From: Shimia sp.
GTDB taxonomy: Bacteria; Pseudomonadota; Alphaproteobacteria; Rhodobacterales; Rhodobacteraceae
Assembly (NCBI GenBank): GCA_024224295.1
Contig: JAAENN010000118.1
Span: 1 to 64,000, forward strand
Reading direction: 5' to 3'
DNA: 64,000 nt
The translations under genes were made by a program, and so were the position numbers. Below the pieces are notes generated by a model. That model was not told the DNA's origin. It made no database searches and worked only from the letters and a program-made list of their open reading frames with translations. This document shows, piece by piece, positions 26,018 through 40,235 of this stretch. Within the stretch, counting starts at the first letter, position 1. Every line of letters starts with the position of its first letter.

Positions 26018-26512
26018 ATGAAAAAACTTCTACCTATCATTCTTCTTCTGGTTGGCATCGGGGCTGGCGTTGGCGCAGGGCTTGTCCTGCGTCCGGAGCC
26101 TGCTCCAGTTGAAGCAGCCGAAGGTGCAGAAAGTGAAGAACACGCCGAAAAATCTGGTAAAATCGACGAAGAAGGCCCGCCAACCGGGCGCGAATATGTC
26201 GACCTTGTTGATCAGTTCATTGTACCGGTAGTGAATGACAATGCTGTAGCCTCGCTCATCCTGATCACACTTACCATCGAGGTGGAAAGCGGCAATCGGG
26301 AGGCCATCTTTGAGGCGGAACCCCGCATTCGAGGCGCGCTTCTGCAAGCTATGTTTGATCACGCTAACATTGGCGGTTTTAGCGGCGCCTTTACCAACTC
26401 CAGCAAGCTAGACCGGCTGCGTGAAACCTTCTTAGAAGTGGCGCAGAAATCATATGGTGATGAAATCACGGATGTGTTGATTGTGCAGATCACACGCCAA
26501 GACATCGCGTAA
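26018..26512 (+). CDS. FliL-like basal-body protein (second paralogue)
   Basis: 164 residues with one N-terminal membrane helix (LLPIILLLVGIGAGVGAGLVL), an acidic Ala/Glu linker (about 28-55) and a C-terminal periplasmic domain. The C-terminal part (REYVDLVDQFIVPVV, then VASLILITLTIEVE and ALLQAMFDHA) resembles FliL. The cluster has another FliL at 36358-36852, closer to the standard form. Last gene of the rod operon, so it may have a specialised motor or rod role; annotation as FliL-like is moderate. Confidence 0.65.
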   Translation: MKKLLPIILLLVGIGAGVGAGLVLRPEPAPVEAAEGAESEEHAEKSGKIDEEGPPTGREYVDLVDQFIVPVVNDNAVASLILITLTIEVESGNREAIFEAEPRIRGALLQAMFDHANIGGFSGAFTNSSKLDRLRETFLEVAQKSYGDEITDVLIVQITRQDIA

Positions 26513-28086: not shown

Positions 28087-28859
28087 CTCAGGCCCTCAAC
28101 CGGGTTGATCGTAAACGCTTCCATCGCGCCCCACCACAGGGTGAGTAGTGATGGCGCCACGAGGAACAAAAGGAATAGGCCGCCCGCTGTGATCAATGGC
28201 GCCCCAACGAAGGCCACCATCAACTGCGGCATGGCGCGGTTGATCACGCCAAGCATCAGGTTGTAGATCGCCGAAACAATCACAAAAGGTGCCGCCAGTC
28301 GGAACGCCATGTTAAACGCCTGAGCCATATGTGGGACGCCCCATTCGGTCATGATTTCCCGCGGTGGAAAAGTGCCCGCTGGGAACAACATGTAAGATCC
28401 GATCAGGTAACGTGCGACATAGACGTGTAGCCCCATGGTTACCGCCAGCGCCAGACCAGCAATTACCAATACATTGCCGATTGCTGGCAACGGCTCGCCT
28501 GCTGCACCGCCCAAAAGCTGAGCCAAAGAGGTCGACTGACCGGCAATTGTGCCTGCGGTCTGCAAGGCAAACACAAACATGCGAATACCAATTCCCATCA
28601 AAAAACCACTGATGGTTTCGGTCAACGCATATTGCGCGATCAACGGGAAAGTCGGCTCGGCGCTTTCGAATACCGGTACGGCGGGGGCCACAATCGTCGT
28701 GAAGGCCAAGGCCAGAACAATCTTAATCCTTTGTGGTACCGATGTTTCGCCAAAGGCTGGCAGCAGAGCCACAGCTGTCCCAACCCGCAAAAACACCAAA
28801 AAGCCGTGCCAAAGCGCAGCTTCTGTGGTGTTAAGAAGGAAGAGGGCGGTCTCCATCAT
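28083..28859 (-). CDS. fliR: flagellar export gate protein FliR
   Basis: Polytopic inner-membrane protein, 258 residues, with six or so hydrophobic segments and family patterns FLRVGTAVALLPAFGE and QTAGTIAGQSTSLAQL. Assembles with FliP and FliQ into the export pore. Overlaps flhA and flhB by 4 bases each. Confidence 0.95.
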   Translation of the reverse strand: MMETALFLLNTTEAALWHGFLVFLRVGTAVALLPAFGETSVPQRIKIVLALAFTTIVAPAVPVFESAEPTFPLIAQYALTETISGFLMGIGIRMFVFALQTAGTIAGQSTSLAQLLGGAAGEPLPAIGNVLVIAGLALAVTMGLHVYVARYLIGSYMLFPAGTFPPREIMTEWGVPHMAQAFNMAFRLAAPFVIVSAIYNLMLGVINRAMPQLMVAFVGAPLITAGGLFLLFLVAPSLLTLWWGAMEAFTINPVEGLR

Positions 28860-30952
28860 GCGGCAACAACCCCGACCAGTGCAGGTCGCGCATCCAGGCC
28901 GATTTCTTCAAAGCTGAGGACCGGATTGGAAATACCTTTGGCGCTCAGAACTGTGCGCAGGAATCGCCGGCGCCGTGTCGAGGTTACGAGCGCAGCAAAA
29001 ATTCCGCTGTTTCCGGCGTCTGTCATCCGGTCAGAAATTGACTGCGCCAGCGCGTTGAATACATCCGGCGGCAGCGCCACGTCCATACCGCCCGCATCAC
29101 CATCCACCTGATAGGTAGCAAATGTGTCTTCCCACTCAGGCGCTAGCTGCACTAGCGGAATGGTGCCATCGTCGCGCTTCAAGTCGGAAATCAGCTGGAA
29201 GCCCAGACGCTGGCGCACATTTTCGCAGATGGCTTCCGGCTGTACGCTTACATGACGGGCCTCTGCGATCGACTCCAAAATCAGCGGCATGTTGCGGATC
29301 GATACCTGCTCATCCAGCAGCATACGCAAAATGCGATGCAGCAGATCAAGGGGCACTTTGTCGGGCACAAACTCATCCATCATCCGGCGGTTGGCATCCG
29401 CGCGCACAGGATCGGACAGGTTGATCATCTCATCCAGTATGCGACGCAGTGCTTTAAAGGTCAGCAGGCGGCCAAAATTGGACTTGATGGTCTCCAATAG
29501 ATGCGTTGCTAGAACTTCGCCCGGCGTCACAATAGTTATGCCTGACAGCGCAGCTTTTTCTTGTGCGGCGCTGTCGATCCAGCGAGCAGGGGCCCCGTAA
29601 ACCGGTTCCGAAACGTCTTCACCAGTGGGTAGTGAATCCGGGCTGTCCCCAGCCAAGGCCAGAACCTTTTCGGGCTCTAGACGGTCGCGCACTTGCTCCA
29701 CACCCTGAATGCGAATGGTGTAGGTGCCATTTGGCAGAGACGGCTCGTCGGTCAGGCGGATTTCTGGTAGAATCAAACCATAGGTCGAGGCCACATGGGT
29801 TCGCATGTTGGTGATGCGCGCATCCAAACCCGCGCCGGGATCAAGCACCATGTTCACCAGGTCCGTGGCAAACTCGACATGAATGTCGTCCAGATCCAGC
29901 ACGTCGCCAATGGGCTTGTCGCGTGGTAGAACTGGCGCGTCTTCTTCATTCGGTTCAAGGCTGGCTTCAGCTTCTTCTTTTTTCTTCTGATGCAGGTAGT
30001 ATGCGGAAAATCCCAGTACACCGCCGCCAGCCAAGAAAGGCAGGAAAGGCAGGCCTGGAACCAGAGCAAACAGAAGCATCAGTACGGCTACGGTGGCGAT
30101 GGCCGGCGGGTAATTGCCCAGCTGCCTCAGTAGGGTTAGGTCAGTGGACCCGGTGGTGCCGCCACGCGCCAAAAGCAAAGCCGAAGCAATTGAGATGATC
30201 ACAGCTGGGATCTGGGTCACCAGACCATCGCCGACGGTCAGGATCGCGTAGGTCTCAAAAGCTTGGCCAATGGGCATGCCATGAATGGCGACGCCCATGA
30301 TTAGGCCCATCACCAAGTTCAGAAGTGTGATTAACAAGCCGGCAATTGCGTCGCCTTTCACAAACTTTGACGCACCATCCAGCGAGCCGAAGAAGGTGGT
30401 TTCCTGCTGTTCACGCTCACGGCGGGCTTTGGCTTCGGCATGGTCAATCGCGCCGGCTGACATGTCGCTGTCAATCGCAAGCTGCTTACCTGGCATGCCG
30501 TCGAGTGCAAAGCGCGCGCCGACTTCGGCCATCCGGGTGGCACCTTTGTTGATCACCATGAAGTTCACGATGAGCAGTACGCAGAACACCACAAGGCCCA
30601 GGAACACACTGCCGCCCATGACGAAGTTGGCAAACCCTTCGATCACATCACCGGCAGCGTTGGTCCCAGTGTGGCCCTGACCAATGATCAGCTTGGTCGA
30701 AGACACGTTCAGCGACAGGCGCAGCATCAGCGAGGCCAGAAGGATGGTCGGGAAGGCCGAAAAATCCAAAGGTCGCTCGATAAACAGCGTCACAGTGAAG
30801 ATCAAAATGGCGAGGGCAAAAGATGCGGCCAATCCGATGTCCAGCACCCAAGAGGGCATAGGCAGGATCATCATGACAATAATCGCCATCAGGGCGAGGG
30901 CGAGTAGGATCGTCGGACTAAATAGCGCTTTGATGGAGAAAGTTGGGTTCAC
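28856..30952 (-). CDS. flhA: flagellar export gate protein FlhA
   Basis: Nonameric export gate, 698 residues, normal length. Eight membrane helices in the first ~330 residues, including the FHIPEP signature region (ARFALDGMPGKQLAIDSD). The cytoplasmic substrate/chaperone docking domain covers the C-terminal half. GTG start at 30952, 3 bases after sltF. Confidence 0.97.
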   Translation of the reverse strand: MNPTFSIKALFSPTILLALALMAIIVMMILPMPSWVLDIGLAASFALAILIFTVTLFIERPLDFSAFPTILLASLMLRLSLNVSSTKLIIGQGHTGTNAAGDVIEGFANFVMGGSVFLGLVVFCVLLIVNFMVINKGATRMAEVGARFALDGMPGKQLAIDSDMSAGAIDHAEAKARREREQQETTFFGSLDGASKFVKGDAIAGLLITLLNLVMGLIMGVAIHGMPIGQAFETYAILTVGDGLVTQIPAVIISIASALLLARGGTTGSTDLTLLRQLGNYPPAIATVAVLMLLFALVPGLPFLPFLAGGGVLGFSAYYLHQKKKEEAEASLEPNEEDAPVLPRDKPIGDVLDLDDIHVEFATDLVNMVLDPGAGLDARITNMRTHVASTYGLILPEIRLTDEPSLPNGTYTIRIQGVEQVRDRLEPEKVLALAGDSPDSLPTGEDVSEPVYGAPARWIDSAAQEKAALSGITIVTPGEVLATHLLETIKSNFGRLLTFKALRRILDEMINLSDPVRADANRRMMDEFVPDKVPLDLLHRILRMLLDEQVSIRNMPLILESIAEARHVSVQPEAICENVRQRLGFQLISDLKRDDGTIPLVQLAPEWEDTFATYQVDGDAGGMDVALPPDVFNALAQSISDRMTDAGNSGIFAALVTSTRRRRFLRTVLSAKGISNPVLSFEEIGLDARPALVGVVAA

Positions 30953-31794: not shown

Positions 31795-34113
31795 TTAAGA
31801 AGATGGCTCGCTTACACTGTGTAGGTCGAGCAATTCGCCGAGTACGCCTCGGCTTTCCGCAGCGCCTTCCAGCAACGCCCGATTACGCGCCAACATACCT
31901 TCGGTCACGCGATCGGGCGCCGCAGCTGTTTCGCCATTTTCTTCAGATGGTAAGAGGTAGGTCGAGGCCCGTCGTAACACTTCGTTTTCCGAGGCTGTCA
32001 GAGATGCCAAGTCGCCATCTAGCCAGGCTTCGGTCTCCGCCAAGCCACGGTCGCCAAGTTCAGCCAGCAAACGCGCCGCCCCGGCATGATCGCCCGCCAT
32101 TGCCTTTGCGCGCGCGCGCAAGCGATCAGCAATCGGTGTTTCCATACCTATAAGCTCCGCTTCAGCGCGCTTGGGTAGTGCTTCTGCGAGTGCAAGGCGT
32201 GCATTCAGCAGACGCTTCTCATCGGTTGGAATCACAGTTTGTGCCGCCTGCATAAGGCGTTTGGTTTCTCCCAGAAAGCCCATCTCGAAGGTCTTATGGG
32301 CCAATGCCAAAGCGGTGTCCGTGGAAATGCGGCCGGGCGACGCGAGACGCTCCTGAATGGACCAAGAAATCACTTCAAAATCGTCTGCATGCTCCAACAC
32401 GGCCATGACCAGTTGGCTGCGCACGTCTTCTGCGGCTGCGTCACCGTCGCGGGTCTCAATGTCTTTGATGATTTTAAACGCCGCGCCAAATTCTTGTTCC
32501 ATCATCCGTGCCAGCGCATGGGCACGGCGCAGGTCAGGCCCCATGCTGCCGCCCTTGTGCTCCACGGCCAGGGCGCCGACCAGAGAAATAGTCTCTGCGG
32601 ATGGGGCCACGCCTTGTTCCACATGAGTTGCGATCAGATCTATGACCGCTTTGGTGGATATACCGGCATTCTGCGTGGCAATTTCAGTGAGAGCTTCGGT
32701 GGCTTCTTCGGTGTTGCCAAGCTCTGCATTCAATGTGGCTTCGGCAAACTCAAAGTTGATGTCCGGTGTGGGGGTTGTGCGTTCAATCCCGTTCAAAACT
32801 AGCATCGCAGCTTCGGTTTTACCCTGTGCCACCAACTGGTTGCTCAGTTTTGGACCAAGATACTCGCGTAAGTGACGCGGCATCTTTTGTTGCGCGTCCA
32901 ATGCACCGTTCACAGCACTTTCCCCCACCAGGGTTTCGCCTGAAAGAGCCGCCCACATGGCGGAGTTGCCAGCACAATGCCCCTGGCTGGCAAACGACGG
33001 GTTGTGTGCCGGAGGCTCGCGTCCATCCATGATATGCGCCATTGCGATCAGGATGTTGTTCTCACCACTTTCAGGCAGTAGCTCCATGATCTGCAGCGCT
33101 TCGGCGCCAAAAGTGTAATGGACATAGAGTTGTGCCAACTCGCGCAATGCATCCTTGTTGGTGCGGTCAAACTCGCCCACCACTTCCTGACGCAGGCGAC
33201 CAAGCTCCTGCACAAAGGTGCCTTCGCCACTCCAGTCGGCGATGTTTACCGCCGAATCCGGCAAGCACATGCCTGTGGCCACTTGCCCACTCAGCAGAGC
33301 GGCAATGTCGCGGCCCATTTCGTCAAGCACGTTGTAAGCGACGATGTTTAGGTCTTGGCCGACAGCAGCTTGCGGTGGCACATGATCCGAGCTGTTGAGC
33401 TGTGGCATCTGCGACTCAGCCGTTTTGACGGGCTTTCCCACCAGACCATTGTCTTCTTCAATAGGAGGCGTCTGTGCCTGCAATAGGTTTTGATGAGCTG
33501 CGCGGTCCACCTGCTTAATCAGATCGCCACGTAGGATTTGCACCTGGGCGCTGCGGTCGACAAAGTTTTCGAGTGCCAAGAGGTCGGAGAAATCCGGCTT
33601 GGGCTCAGAGACGGCCACCTGTACTGGCGGGGGGGTCGGATTAGCAGCCTCAAATGACGAGAATCGGAACTGGCGTTGTGGTTGTTTCTCAACCGGCACG
33701 GCTTCTCCAAATGACAGCGGCACCTGGGGTAGGTCGTCGTTTTGCGCAGTCGGCAGGTCATCGCGAATGTCAAAGATCACGTAGCGCCCATCGTAAGGGA
33801 TCGACACCACACGACAGGCACAGGCCAGTTCCAGCTCCAATTCACCGGCGGCGTCGTTGGCAACAATATTGGCCAAACGGTCCCGCGGGATTTTGTCAAA
33901 GATGGTGCTGGTACGCAGATTTACATCGTCACCCTCAATTTTGATGGTGTAAAACCGCCCGTCGCGGGACACGGTCCAGTCGGTCTCTGCCGACGGTAAT
34001 GTGGCGACCAAACGGGTGAAATCTTCGTGCTCGCCCGACCGGAAAAGCACGTCTTGAGCGGCCCCCGCAGAGGCCGCCAATACCAACGGAACAGCAAGAA
34101 AGAGCTGTTTCAT
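31795..34113 (-). CDS. large periplasmic helical-repeat protein of the flagellar motor locus, function unknown
   Basis: 772 residues with a Sec signal peptide (MKQLFLAVPLVLAASAGAAQ). Residues about 20-120 look like a beta-rich domain; residues about 125-270 are a low-complexity Pro/Gln/Glu linker; residues about 290-700 are an alpha-helical repeat region of TPR/solenoid type (for example LGNTEEATEALTEIATQNAG, AGDHAGAARLLAELGDRG). I do not recognise the family. The ATGA overlap with motA couples its translation to the stator gene, and a MotE-like gene lies upstream. In rhizobia MotE is the chaperone of the periplasmic motor protein MotC, so this protein may play a MotC-like part; that is inference from context. 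Confidence 0.7.
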   Translation of the reverse strand: MKQLFLAVPLVLAASAGAAQDVLFRSGEHEDFTRLVATLPSAETDWTVSRDGRFYTIKIEGDDVNLRTSTIFDKIPRDRLANIVANDAAGELELELACACRVVSIPYDGRYVIFDIRDDLPTAQNDDLPQVPLSFGEAVPVEKQPQRQFRFSSFEAANPTPPPVQVAVSEPKPDFSDLLALENFVDRSAQVQILRGDLIKQVDRAAHQNLLQAQTPPIEEDNGLVGKPVKTAESQMPQLNSSDHVPPQAAVGQDLNIVAYNVLDEMGRDIAALLSGQVATGMCLPDSAVNIADWSGEGTFVQELGRLRQEVVGEFDRTNKDALRELAQLYVHYTFGAEALQIMELLPESGENNILIAMAHIMDGREPPAHNPSFASQGHCAGNSAMWAALSGETLVGESAVNGALDAQQKMPRHLREYLGPKLSNQLVAQGKTEAAMLVLNGIERTTPTPDINFEFAEATLNAELGNTEEATEALTEIATQNAGISTKAVIDLIATHVEQGVAPSAETISLVGALAVEHKGGSMGPDLRRAHALARMMEQEFGAAFKIIKDIETRDGDAAAEDVRSQLVMAVLEHADDFEVISWSIQERLASPGRISTDTALALAHKTFEMGFLGETKRLMQAAQTVIPTDEKRLLNARLALAEALPKRAEAELIGMETPIADRLRARAKAMAGDHAGAARLLAELGDRGLAETEAWLDGDLASLTASENEVLRRASTYLLPSEENGETAAAPDRVTEGMLARNRALLEGAAESRGVLGELLDLHSVSEPSS

Positions 34114-34979
34114 GCGGCTTCCTTCTTCACTTCTGCCAGGGCCTCTTCCAGCTCCGCAAATTGCGGACGGTTGTGGCCCGGCGTATTCTGACGTCCAACT
34201 TCGATGCAGATGTTTGGCGAGTGGTTGTGCAGATTGGCAATCAACACCTCACGGATCAGCTGATAAAAATGCGCCTCATCTTCGACCACACCTTTGATCT
34301 TCGCGGCAAACGGACCCACCAGACCATAGGCTAGGAAAACCCCGAGGAACGTCCCCACAAGTGCGCCACCAATCATGCCGCCCAGAACTTCTGGCGGCTG
34401 ATCGATCGATCCCATGGTTTTGATAACCCCCAAAACCGCCGCAACAATTCCCAGCGCCGGAAGCGCATCCGCGAGTGACTGCAACGCGTGGTTAGGGTGC
34501 ATTGCGTGGTGGAAATTGGCTTCGATTCGCTTTTCCAGAACCTCTTCCACCTGATGTGGGTCGTCATAGTTCATCGACGCGGAGCGCATGGTGTCGGCAA
34601 TCAGATTGATTGCCTCTTTGTCCGCTGTGATGCGTGGGTATTTTTCAAAGATGTTGGATTCATCGGGATTCTCGATATGCTCCTCGATGGCCACTGGGTT
34701 TTTCCTAGCCAATCGTATGAGCTCAAAAAGCAAACACAGCAGATCCTTGTAATCGTCCGGCTTCCATTTAGGGCCTTTGAAGACTTTCCCGAGATCTTTC
34801 AGCGTATGTTTCACCACGGAGCCGTCATTGGACACCAAAAAGGCGCCCACACCGGAGCCGCCGATGATGATCATCTCAAAGGGAAGGGCCTTCATAATCG
34901 GGCCAAGACTACCACCGGCCAGAACGTATCCGCCCAACACCATGATAAAAACAACAGCGATGCCAATAATGCCTAGCAC
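34110..34979 (-). CDS. motA: flagellar stator protein MotA
   Basis: Inner-membrane stator subunit, 289 residues, with four membrane helices and a large cytoplasmic loop. The MotA signature ALPALGIVAAVLGVIKTMG and the GGMIGGALVGTFLGVFLAYG helix are clear. The loop carries the charged residues that act on the rotor (EKYPRITADKEAI). motB normally follows motA; here the next gene encodes the 772-residue periplasmic protein instead. Confidence 0.95.
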   Translation of the reverse strand: MLGIIGIAVVFIMVLGGYVLAGGSLGPIMKALPFEMIIIGGSGVGAFLVSNDGSVVKHTLKDLGKVFKGPKWKPDDYKDLLCLLFELIRLARKNPVAIEEHIENPDESNIFEKYPRITADKEAINLIADTMRSASMNYDDPHQVEEVLEKRIEANFHHAMHPNHALQSLADALPALGIVAAVLGVIKTMGSIDQPPEVLGGMIGGALVGTFLGVFLAYGLVGPFAAKIKGVVEDEAHFYQLIREVLIANLHNHSPNICIEVGRQNTPGHNRPQFAELEEALAEVKKEAA

Positions 34980-35039: not shown

Positions 35040-35711
35040 TCATTCGGTGGGGGTATTTGCGTTCCTACCGGCCAAAATAACGCTGATTGTGTATGCAGCA
35101 TCTGGCGTCATACCAGCCATGACGCCCGCCGCCGCTTCAGGCTTCATGCGCCCGATGAAACCAGCAGCAAATTTTGGGTCCATCTCTTCAAACAGAGCGG
35201 CCACATCTTTGGGCTTCATGGTCTCATAAACCTGAGTCAGTCGCAGCAGGTCATCTTCCGCGGCGGTCTCTGACAAGGCAATCAGGCTGCGCAAACGTCC
35301 TTCGGCATCTTCCAGCGCAGCCAGTTTTCTGGTCACTTCACCATCCGCCACATTTAGCGCCTGCAGGCGATTCTTGATCTCTGCCTCACGTTGCTCGATA
35401 CGCTGCTCGCGTTCTTTGAACACGACCATAAGTTCACGCATGTCTTCAGGTGGCTCACAGGTTTCCGGTTTTGCCATACTGGCCAGCGGTGATTCAAAAA
35501 GCGGCTCTTCACGCGCCAAAGCTTCAGTCGCGCTAATGCTCACACGCACGGTGGCCGAGGCAATCAAAAACGTCGCAATCAAAAACAGGCTCCCTTTGGA
35601 CTGCTTTCGGCGTGCCTTTTTCTTGGCTTTTGGCGTACCCGAAGGGGCGTCCGGCTTGGTCAGCGTCTCTGCAGCCGCCTTTGCACGGGTTTTCTTGGCG
35701 TCTTTTTTCAT
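35040..35711 (-). CDS. motE: MotE-like protein (MgtE N-terminal-type domain)
   Basis: 223 residues. A Lys/Ala-rich N-terminus (about 1-38), one membrane or signal helix (GSLFLIATFLIASATV), a coiled coil (about 95-150, KEREQRIEQREAEIKNRL) and a C-terminal MgtE_N-like domain (YETMKPKDVAALFEEMDPK, RMKPEAAAGVMAGM). This layout fits the MotE family, the MotC-folding factor of Sinorhizobium. It lies directly before motA in the operon. Confidence 0.78.
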   Translation of the reverse strand: MKKDAKKTRAKAAAETLTKPDAPSGTPKAKKKARRKQSKGSLFLIATFLIASATVRVSISATEALAREEPLFESPLASMAKPETCEPPEDMRELMVVFKEREQRIEQREAEIKNRLQALNVADGEVTRKLAALEDAEGRLRSLIALSETAAEDDLLRLTQVYETMKPKDVAALFEEMDPKFAAGFIGRMKPEAAAGVMAGMTPDAAYTISVILAGRNANTPTE

Positions 35712-35725
35712 CGCATACGCTCCAG

Positions 35726-36346
35726 TTAGGCGACGTGGCGTTTAAACATGGTGCCAGCTTCTGGCTCTTTTGCTGCCGCTGGTGCGGCTTCCGCCTGCAT
35801 CGCGGCCAGGGCCATTGCCGCCTTTTTCTTGGCTTTCTTCTTGGCCTTTTTCTTTGCCCGACGGATCAGCTTGGCCTCTTCCGCTGCAATCGCTTCTGCC
35901 TGGATACGCGCCCAATCCTCATCATTGGTGGTTTCTGTAGTTTCTTCCGCTTTGGTATCTTCCGCGATTGGTTCGGCGACCTCTGCTTCGGCCCTTTCTT
36001 TTACGGGCTCAGGTTCGTCGGCTTCCGGCTCTGGTGTGGCCTTTGCTTGAGCTGGCTTCGAATCTTCGATGTCGTGCATCGCGGCCATCATCAGCTCAAG
36101 ACGTTTAGAAACCCCTTCCGCGCGCTGAGTCAGTGCCTCAAGTCGTTCGGTGGATTTACCGGCTGTGCCTTGTGCGGCTTTCAGCGTGCGGGTCATATCG
36201 TCCACTTGGGCAGACAAAACGGCCACCGCTCCGCCTACGCCTGATTCCAAATCATTGAATTTGGAAAGGCGGCGCGCCAGTACAAAACAATAGATGCCAG
36301 CCCCGAGGGCACCGGCTACTAACAAGATATCTGCAATCAAGTTCAT
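35726..36346 (-). CDS. membrane-anchored coiled-coil protein, polybasic, function unknown
   Basis: 206 residues. An N-terminal membrane helix (ADILLVAGALGAGIYCFVLA) is followed by a coiled coil with heptads (about 40-95, VDDMTRTLKAAQ to LMMAAMHDI), an acidic Glu/Pro/Ala stretch (about 96-145), then a Lys cluster RRAKKKAKKKAKKKAAM and an Ala-rich tail. The topology suggests that most of it is cytoplasmic. Position between fliL and motE places it in the motor operon. I do not recognise a named family with confidence. Confidence 0.6.
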   Translation of the reverse strand: MNLIADILLVAGALGAGIYCFVLARRLSKFNDLESGVGGAVAVLSAQVDDMTRTLKAAQGTAGKSTERLEALTQRAEGVSKRLELMMAAMHDIEDSKPAQAKATPEPEADEPEPVKERAEAEVAEPIAEDTKAEETTETTNDEDWARIQAEAIAAEEAKLIRRAKKKAKKKAKKKAAMALAAMQAEAAPAAAKEPEAGTMFKRHVA

Positions 36347-36357
36347 CTCGACACTCC

Positions 36358-36852
36358 TCAGTTCAACACGAATTCCATGACCAGAAGGTCGGAAACACGT
36401 TCAGGTCCGGTTACAATTTGTACGCGACGCAGCATTTGCGACCGCAGGGTCACCAACGCATCTGGCGATTCGATGTCTGACGTGTTCAGCGCGCGCAGAT
36501 AGCCGTTCAGCACATCCACAACACGCGGCAACACCCGCTCCACTTCTTCCTGATGGTCGCTGGGCACTTCCAATTGGGCGCGGAATCGCAGGTAGTCTGC
36601 GCCGCCACTGGAAGTCAGTGAAACAATAAGAGGGTCCATGCCGACGTAAGTCACGTCTGGCAGTGCTTCGATCTCTTCCGCTGGTGCCGATTCCTCGGCC
36701 ACATCAGCAGAATCATTTCCTAAAATCATGCCCGAATAGACGGCGTAGAATCCGCCGCCGCCACCAGCCAAAGCCAGTACGAGCCCAATGATTAAAGGGA
36801 GTTTTGACGCTTTTTTCGGTGCGTCTTCTGTCTCGACAGTTTCGTCAGTCAT
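36358..36852 (-). CDS. fliL: flagellar basal body-associated protein FliL
   Basis: Stator-associated membrane protein, 164 residues. Cytoplasmic N-terminus, one membrane helix (LPLIIGLVLALAGGGGGF), then a periplasmic FliL domain (VGMDPLIVSLTSSG, LRFRAQLEVPSDHQEEVERV, VVDVLNGYLRAL). I chose the ATG at 36852; a start at 36891 would add 13 residues. First gene of the ten-gene leftward operon, divergent from fliF. Confidence 0.88.
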   Translation of the reverse strand: MTDETVETEDAPKKASKLPLIIGLVLALAGGGGGFYAVYSGMILGNDSADVAEESAPAEEIEALPDVTYVGMDPLIVSLTSSGGADYLRFRAQLEVPSDHQEEVERVLPRVVDVLNGYLRALNTSDIESPDALVTLRSQMLRRVQIVTGPERVSDLLVMEFVLN

Positions 36853-36898
36853 CACAGGTTCCAAATTCTTTGTCCCTGCAACTTCAACCATACAGAAA

Positions 36899-36913: not shown

Positions 36914-36975
36914 GTCTGTTGAGAGAAACAGTTCGTGACGGTCGTGCAGAAGGTGCGATCCCACGGAGAAGAAAC

Positions 36976-39224: not shown

Positions 39225-39498
39225 TCCAACTCTTAAATCCGAATCCGGCAACCCGTTCACCTCTGTGCCTGTGGAGATCACGATCTCCGTGGGCAAGGCG
39301 CGCCCGCTCATTGGTGACCTGCTGAACATGAACGAAAATTCCGTTCTGCCGCTCGACAAGCGGGTTGATGATCCGGTGGAACTTTATGTGGGTGATAAGC
39401 TCATTGCCCGTGGCGAGCTTGAGGAAATGGAAGGCGGACAGGAAGGCCAACTGGCCGTGCGTCTAACCGAAGTGGCAGAGTTCGAAAGCGGCCTGTGA
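39217..39498 (+). CDS. fliN: flagellar switch protein FliN
   Basis: C-ring protein, 93 residues, a single SpoA-type beta domain. VPVEITISVGKARPLIGDLL, then VLPLDKRVDDPVELYVGDKLIARGEL is the FliN pattern. I chose the ATG at 39217, which has an AAGGAGG site and overlaps fliH by 8 bases. The switch partners fliG and fliM are absent from the window. Confidence 0.93.
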   Translation: MADPTLKSESGNPFTSVPVEITISVGKARPLIGDLLNMNENSVLPLDKRVDDPVELYVGDKLIARGELEEMEGGQEGQLAVRLTEVAEFESGL

Positions 39499-40235
39499 TG
39501 ATCCGCGCGGCTTTTCTTGCCGTCACTTTTTCCACCGTCTTTTTGTTTATGGCAGATCCCGCTTCGGCGCAGGATCTGTCCATCCCGATCACCGAAGACG
39601 GTTCGCTGACGGCACGCAGTATTCAAATCTTCCTCCTGATTACGGTCCTCAGCCTCGCGCCGGGTATCGCGATCATGGTTACTTGCTTCCCATTTATCGT
39701 GACGGTGCTCTCGATTCTGCGTCAGGCCATTGGTCTACAGCAGTCGCCGCCCAATATGATGATGGTCTCGCTGGCGATGTTTTTGACGTATTACGTCATG
39801 GAGCCGGTCTTCACCCAGGCTTGGACCACGGGAGTGGAGCCGCTGATGGCGGAACTGATCGACATCGAAACTGCTTTTGAGTTGACCACGGAACCCTTCC
39901 GTCAATTCATGGCGGCCCGTTTGGACCCGGACACCTACACCCATCTGGCGTCTTTACGTCCAGATACGGTCGACACGGCCCCTGGCCCTGACTCGCCCTT
40001 GTCGGTTTTGGTGCCCAGCTTCATGTTGTCTGAAATCGCTCGCGCCTTTCAGATTGGCTTCCTTATCTTCTTGCCGTTCCTGATCATCGACTTGGTCGTC
40101 GCCGCCGTGCTGATGTCCATGGGGATGATGATGGTTCCACCGGCAATTGTGTCTTTGCCGTTCAAACTGTCGTTCTTTGTGATCGCAGATGGGTGGAGCC
40201 TGATTGCCGGCAGTCTGGTGCGGAGCTACTTCTAA
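39498..40235 (+). CDS. fliP: flagellar export gate protein FliP
   Basis: Core of the export pore, 245 residues. Cleavable signal peptide (MIRAAFLAVTFSTVFLF, ending ASAQ), then the membrane region with IVTVLSILRQAIGLQQSPPN and the C-terminal MGMMMVPPAIVSLPFKL, both FliP hallmarks. The ATG at 39498 overlaps the fliN stop (TGATG). Last gene of the flagellar cluster in this window. Confidence 0.96.
   Translation: MIRAAFLAVTFSTVFLFMADPASAQDLSIPITEDGSLTARSIQIFLLITVLSLAPGIAIMVTCFPFIVTVLSILRQAIGLQQSPPNMMMVSLAMFLTYYVMEPVFTQAWTTGVEPLMAELIDIETAFELTTEPFRQFMAARLDPDTYTHLASLRPDTVDTAPGPDSPLSVLVPSFMLSEIARAFQIGFLIFLPFLIIDLVVAAVLMSMGMMMVPPAIVSLPFKLSFFVIADGWSLIAGSLVRSYF

Follow-up and report, generated by a model that had tools for sequence, protein, structure and literature searches.

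A gene following motA in Shimia is a likely ortholog of motK and of CP4 of Phaeobacter

The window analyzed here is a 64,000-nucleotide stretch of Shimia sp. (contig JAAENN010000118.1, positions 1 to 64,000), and its gene at 31795..34113 on the minus strand is very likely the ortholog of motK, the CP4 gene of Phaeobacter, whose product would be a periplasmic spoke between the E-ring, the stator and the cell wall. We identify the protein as MotK because of its gene order, its AMIN head joined to a TPR-like body, and its co-occurrence with MotE. A first-pass annotation had called the protein unrecognized, a description that no longer applies, as MotK of Cereibacter sphaeroides was described in 2024 with the same gene order, fliL-pflI-motE-motA-motK, and low-similarity homologs were noted in Roseobacteraceae, with Dshi_3259 and CC_2058 proposed among the homologs (PMC10954123). 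The family and its role are known in outline under that name, and the function in Shimia would follow from sequence.

The gene, its order, its domains, its conservation and its co-occurrence with MotE are direct observations of this analysis. Along the minus strand the genes run fliL, pflI-like, motE, motA, motK, sltF, flhA, fliR, flhB. This contains the published MotK order, the pflI match being under cut-off, and agrees with the CP2-CP3-motA-CP4-sltF-flhA-fliR-flhB order in Table 1 for P. inhibens (PMC12363192), with flhA recognized by eye. The genes are as follows:

31795..34113, minus strand: motK (CP4 by position), complete open reading frame (ORF), ATG start, 772 amino acids (772 codons before the stop)
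34110..34979, minus strand: motA, TIGR03818 MotA1 match, E 7e-110
35040..35711, minus strand: motE (CP3 by position), MgtE_N match, E 3.5e-5, 24.7 bits (cut-off 25.9); alignment A4
35726..36346, minus strand: pflI-like gene (CP2 by position), DUF6468 match, E 0.0016, under cut-off
36358..36891, minus strand: fliL, PF03748
30956..31759, minus strand: sltF-like lytic transglycosylase gene, SLT domain, E 1.5e-7
28856..30952, minus strand: flhA, from position and a translation read by eye, with no family search; order as in Table 1 of PMC12363192

The ATG of motK and the stop of motA share four bases (ATGA), as the first-pass annotation had noted, and the start overlaps motA alike in 42 of 46 loci read, a count from a script that favored such starts and a set that takes in the window itself and near duplicates. 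The MotE-like gene it reported before motA also stands, with an MgtE_N-like end as in MotE-type proteins and a bit score just under the cut-off. It also placed the gene where motB is expected; motB is not missing, and lies about 63 kb from motK on the same contig (G000:C118:97682).

In C. sphaeroides, both MotK and MotE reside in the periplasm, interact with one another and bind MotB2, and motK mutants have filaments and are paralyzed; the protein has an AMIN-like head, a disordered stretch and a TPR-like body (PMC10954123). In P. inhibens, CP4 sits between motA and sltF, and its mutants are immotile and were complemented (PMC12363192). The equation of CP4 with MotK, which we infer from gene order, was not found stated in the literature on flagellar MotK: the text of PMC12363192 mentions neither MotK nor MotE, PMC10954123 does not mention Phaeobacter, and a review of the E-ring mentions neither Phaeobacter nor CP4. 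The join of MotE and MotK of C. sphaeroides to the 'enigmatic' CP3 and CP4 of Phaeobacter gives the latter likely functions.

The exported protein with a beta head, disordered linker and helical-repeat body that had been read from the sequence fits both a hydrophobic stretch at residues 4-24, consistent with export (from hydropathy, with no signal-peptide program), and an AlphaFold2 model built from a 40-row alignment (mean predicted local distance difference test score (pLDDT) 81.2, predicted template modeling score 0.58). The pLDDT falls below 50 at residues 121-175 and 214-260, on either side of a lone helix. The parts of the protein are:

34057..34113, minus strand: likely signal peptide, about residues 1-19, from hydropathy and the structure model, with the cleavage site judged by eye
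33760..34056, minus strand: AMIN beta head, residues 20-118, with C98 and C100, from the structure model
33493..33588, minus strand: linker helix, residues 176-207, with a conserved LLEQIxRAAxQGLL-type motif at about 193-211, from the structure model and alignment rows
31954..33330, minus strand: TPR-like solenoid, residues 262-720, with C283 and C380, from the structure model
31822..31896, minus strand: C-terminal helix, residues 740-764, from the structure model, with conservation at 741-760

Structure matches that include AmiC and PilQ bear out the AMIN-like head, and a Pfam AMIN-like match occurs in 11 of the 40 rows of our MotK profile (A1), which includes the window protein, itself without such a match. 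The TPR-like body is seen in the model and in structure matches, and 18/40 A1 rows match Pfam TPR_19 at E ≤0.1. Searches for a non-motility family gave no NCBIfam or PHROGs match for the window protein and a single Pfam match, to TPR_19 and under cut-off; PDB sequence searches returned weak, chance-like rows only. The N-terminal part of the A1 profile matches all eight of eight hand-picked amidases carrying Pfam AMIN and Amidase_3, in a match that includes the signal peptide. A1 also takes in four relatives of 649-667 residues.

The window protein as a single query finds a match in 190/295 genomes of the family and the A1 profile in 198/295, and the gene is therefore real beyond chance. A 20-row MotE profile matches 207/295. 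A recount from the profile lists, with up to three MotK candidates scored per genome, places both proteins in 193 genomes, MotK only in 5 (G040, G056, G061, G212 and G244, the last at E 1e-5 only), MotE only in 14 and neither in 83 (Fisher p 1e-51, kinship not corrected). Ten of the 14 MotE-only matches are weak (E 3e-16 to 3e-24), and these genomes may belong to another flagellar type; the other four are strong (G028, G113, G226, G258). The window MotE, like most but not all A4 rows, has the cysteine through which MotE dimers are linked in C. sphaeroides; several of the rows are cut at the start by how they were taken. One MotE that looks complete (L045 696-1277) has no cysteine at all.

Several points weigh against the assignment to MotK and the spoke role. 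Co-occurrence of this kind would be expected for any pair of genes in a single flagellar cluster, and the window protein was placed by order, domains and profiles, not by comparison with named MotK or CP4 sequences. Mutant phenotypes also differ: motE mutants of C. sphaeroides have filaments yet are paralyzed (PMC10954123), whereas CP3 mutants of P. inhibens showed no flagella, in an assay where few wild-type cells showed flagella either (PMC12363192). PflA of Campylobacter jejuni, to which we liken MotK below, works paired with PflB through its loop (PMC11870540). PflA is also not among the 50 structure matches listed for the window protein, an absence that shows nothing either way.

Beyond the family, a search of the class with the single protein matched two of 142 genomes, both belonging to the genus of the window, and none of the other 140. 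The A1 profile at E ≤0.1 reaches 109/190 class genomes, 107 of them outside the family, although this is no count of MotK, as many matches cover no more than an AMIN or TPR piece, some of them in amidases. In 20 hand-picked regions, mostly best profile matches in other families, a local rescan found a long frame in 19 (not L075), MotE nearby in 18 (all but L084 and L089, where the contig starts immediately ahead of the gene) and MotA in one (L070). An alignment of 18 of the 19 long frames (A3) matches A1 in its TPR part over 405 columns (E 2e-34), and its second AMIN matches that of A1 (E 1e-16); the A3 rows were found using A1, which brings some circularity, and a reversed A3 control gave E 0.46. 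PMC12363192 describes CP1-4 as exclusive to one flagellar type of Rhodobacterales. At the profile level, this exclusivity does not hold for CP3 and CP4, in agreement with PMC10954123 and PMC11870540, and the join to MotE and MotK likewise speaks against it.

A plasmid search with the single window protein gave no match; by profile, plasmid pD4M1D of Paroceanicella profunda carries a MotK homolog of 883 residues (L141 6825-9476), annotated as a hypothetical protein, with a four-base motA overlap. In a region of another alphaproteobacterial genome, two short overlapping MotB_plug genes (L073 3807-5230; E 2.7e-5 and 9.2e-11, OmpA matching the second as well) lie between CheZ-like and MotK-like genes, and the window's MotA found no motA there. 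MotB_plug matches also directly precede MotK-like genes in several further genomes from that draw.

C283 and C380 are present in 40/40 A1 rows, spaced 93-98 residues apart, and C98 and C100 in 39/40, with L033 lacking both; all remaining A1 cysteines fall within the first 14 residues. These conserved pairs make two disulfides likely, C98-C100 in the head and C283-C380 in the solenoid. The P. profunda homolog keeps the pattern (130, 132, 368, 465) with one extra cysteine at 41. In the 19 distant frames, cysteines are confined to the neighborhood of the likely signal peptide or to residues ahead of it; the exceptions are L070, with two in the body (465, 554), and L089, with one (530), residues being counted stop to stop. 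The LLEQIxRAAxQGLL-type stretch at 193-211 is conserved, with degenerate forms in several rows, L043, L045 and L046 being examples. A narrow form of the pattern matches once in six frames of the window and in 0/19 distant frames, and the model gives block mean pLDDT values of 74-83 over 181-210, where the motif forms part of the lone helix.

We propose that MotK is exported and then folds in the periplasm, probably with the two disulfides. Its TPR body would dock on MotE, which would form the E-ring around the MS ring, and its AMIN head would reach the peptidoglycan. By holding MotB, it would allow MotA/B units to be recruited and activated. MotK would be, in Alphaproteobacteria, the counterpart of PflA, a spoke that joins E-ring, stator and wall. 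From the observations above we infer the disulfides, the assignment of binding partners to parts of the protein, the geometry of the spoke and the same behavior of the Shimia copy. Alternatively, MotK could be chiefly an activator, opening the plug of MotB or setting its position, and not a structural spoke. MotK-sfGFP localization in C. sphaeroides does depend on MotA2 and MotB2, and channel remodeling is one option of those authors (PMC10954123); however, an AMIN head, a long solenoid and MotE binding fit PflA, a spoke-former in C. jejuni (PMC11870540), and we consider the activator role possible but on the unlikely side.

The PflA loop at the place of the linker helix wraps PflB in C. jejuni (PMC11870540). 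In a motor lacking PflB, the linker helix could be a docking motif that replaces this loop, stapling each spoke to its neighbor's TPR body, or to MotE or MotB, so that Rhodobacterales MotK builds its own rim, with disulfides absent from most distant relatives to stiffen it. We regard this as quite unlikely.

Also quite unlikely is membership of the window protein in the family of MotC, the rhizobial periplasmic motor protein stabilized by MotE. Both MotC and MotK are published as periplasmic helical-repeat partners of MotE, and a 2026 review argues for their homology from predicted structures while giving the AMIN domain to MotK only. In Sinorhizobium meliloti and Phyllobacterium, fliK and a lytic transglycosylase gene come, in that order, after motC; in the window, motK is followed by sltF. 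The motC gene of S. meliloti adjoins motB and encodes 434 residues, and the window gene does not directly follow motB. Against a MotC profile of six rhizobial copies from named plasmid records, A1 gives Prob 0.3 and E 0.2, and its TPR part alone Prob 0.6 and E 0.099; a single MotC sequence failed against A1 as well. The larger MotK-like proteins of A3 reach E 0.004 (eight column-shuffled copies, E ≥0.33; reversed copy, 0.4), but at Prob 8 only, and TPR folds are alike anyway. MotC was found in 0/190 genomes of the class draw, an empty answer that shows nothing, and none was recognized in the ORF lists of 20 motB neighborhoods (19 genomes), which were looked over with no MotC search run there. 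Since MotE has been published as a partner of each, the window protein may nevertheless work like MotC. The first-pass suggestion of a MotC counterpart or a new stator-scaffold component thus survives as a periplasmic motor and stator-scaffold protein associated with MotE and MotA, and not as a sequence relationship to MotC.

Finally, a role for MotK in assembly, in the export of hook or filament components and not in the motor, is very unlikely. The P. inhibens CP4 mutant did show a reduced number of secreted flagellar proteins, which favors such a role, but FliC, FlgK and FlgE were still among them (PMC12363192), and C. sphaeroides motK mutants have filaments and similar hook protein release (PMC10954123).

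Elsewhere in the cluster, fliF at 36919 diverges from the fliL-to-flhB run. A second, divergent FliL-like gene (window 26018-26512; PF03748, E 1.7e-4, under cut-off) takes the place of P. inhibens PGA1_c35750. The motB gene and the flgE-, flgK-, flgL- and flgI-like genes that follow it lie at about 97.6-103.5 kb of the contig (97622-103493; L150 9623-15494), the flgE and flgL labels resting on general or weak domains and position. Some 57 kb separate this group from fliP (39495-40235 in the window); in P. inhibens, consecutive locus tags put these genes beside fliP (PMC12363192, Table 1).

The closest published likeness is MotK of the C. sphaeroides Fla2 system (PMC10954123), which shares gene order, probable export, an AMIN-like head, a disordered linker, a TPR-like body and a nearby motE, at 652 residues versus 772 and likened by gene order and domain plan. 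CP4 of P. inhibens (PGA1_c35690) lies in the same cluster between motA and sltF; it is likened by position, not sequence, and PMC12363192 assigns it no function. Published comparisons of predicted structures group MotK with MotC, CC_2058 and PflA, and MotE with FlgY, the E-ring (PMC13023049, PMC11870540). S. meliloti MotC shares the role of periplasmic MotE partner and the helical repeats, and differs in its length, its place beside motB, its lack of AMIN according to the review, and the absence of detectable direct profile similarity. Other alphaproteobacterial families have MotK-like proteins encoded next to motE, a group in which CC_2058 has been placed although it was not itself identified among them. 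These proteins align in the TPR and AMIN parts; they differ in their size (frames of 992-1420 residues), an extra stretch before the TPR part, and the rarity of cysteine in the mature part, with two AMIN matches in 10/18 A3 rows, one in 6/18 and none in 2/18. The four cysteines and the linker helix are named residues that bear on how an E-ring spoke holds stators, and together with the conflict between the C. sphaeroides motE and P. inhibens CP3 phenotypes they are where the remaining interest lies. PflA of C. jejuni, likened by domain plan and not by sequence, has an AMIN head, loop and TPR body in the same order, and is the partner of FlgY, the MotE counterpart (PMC11870540).
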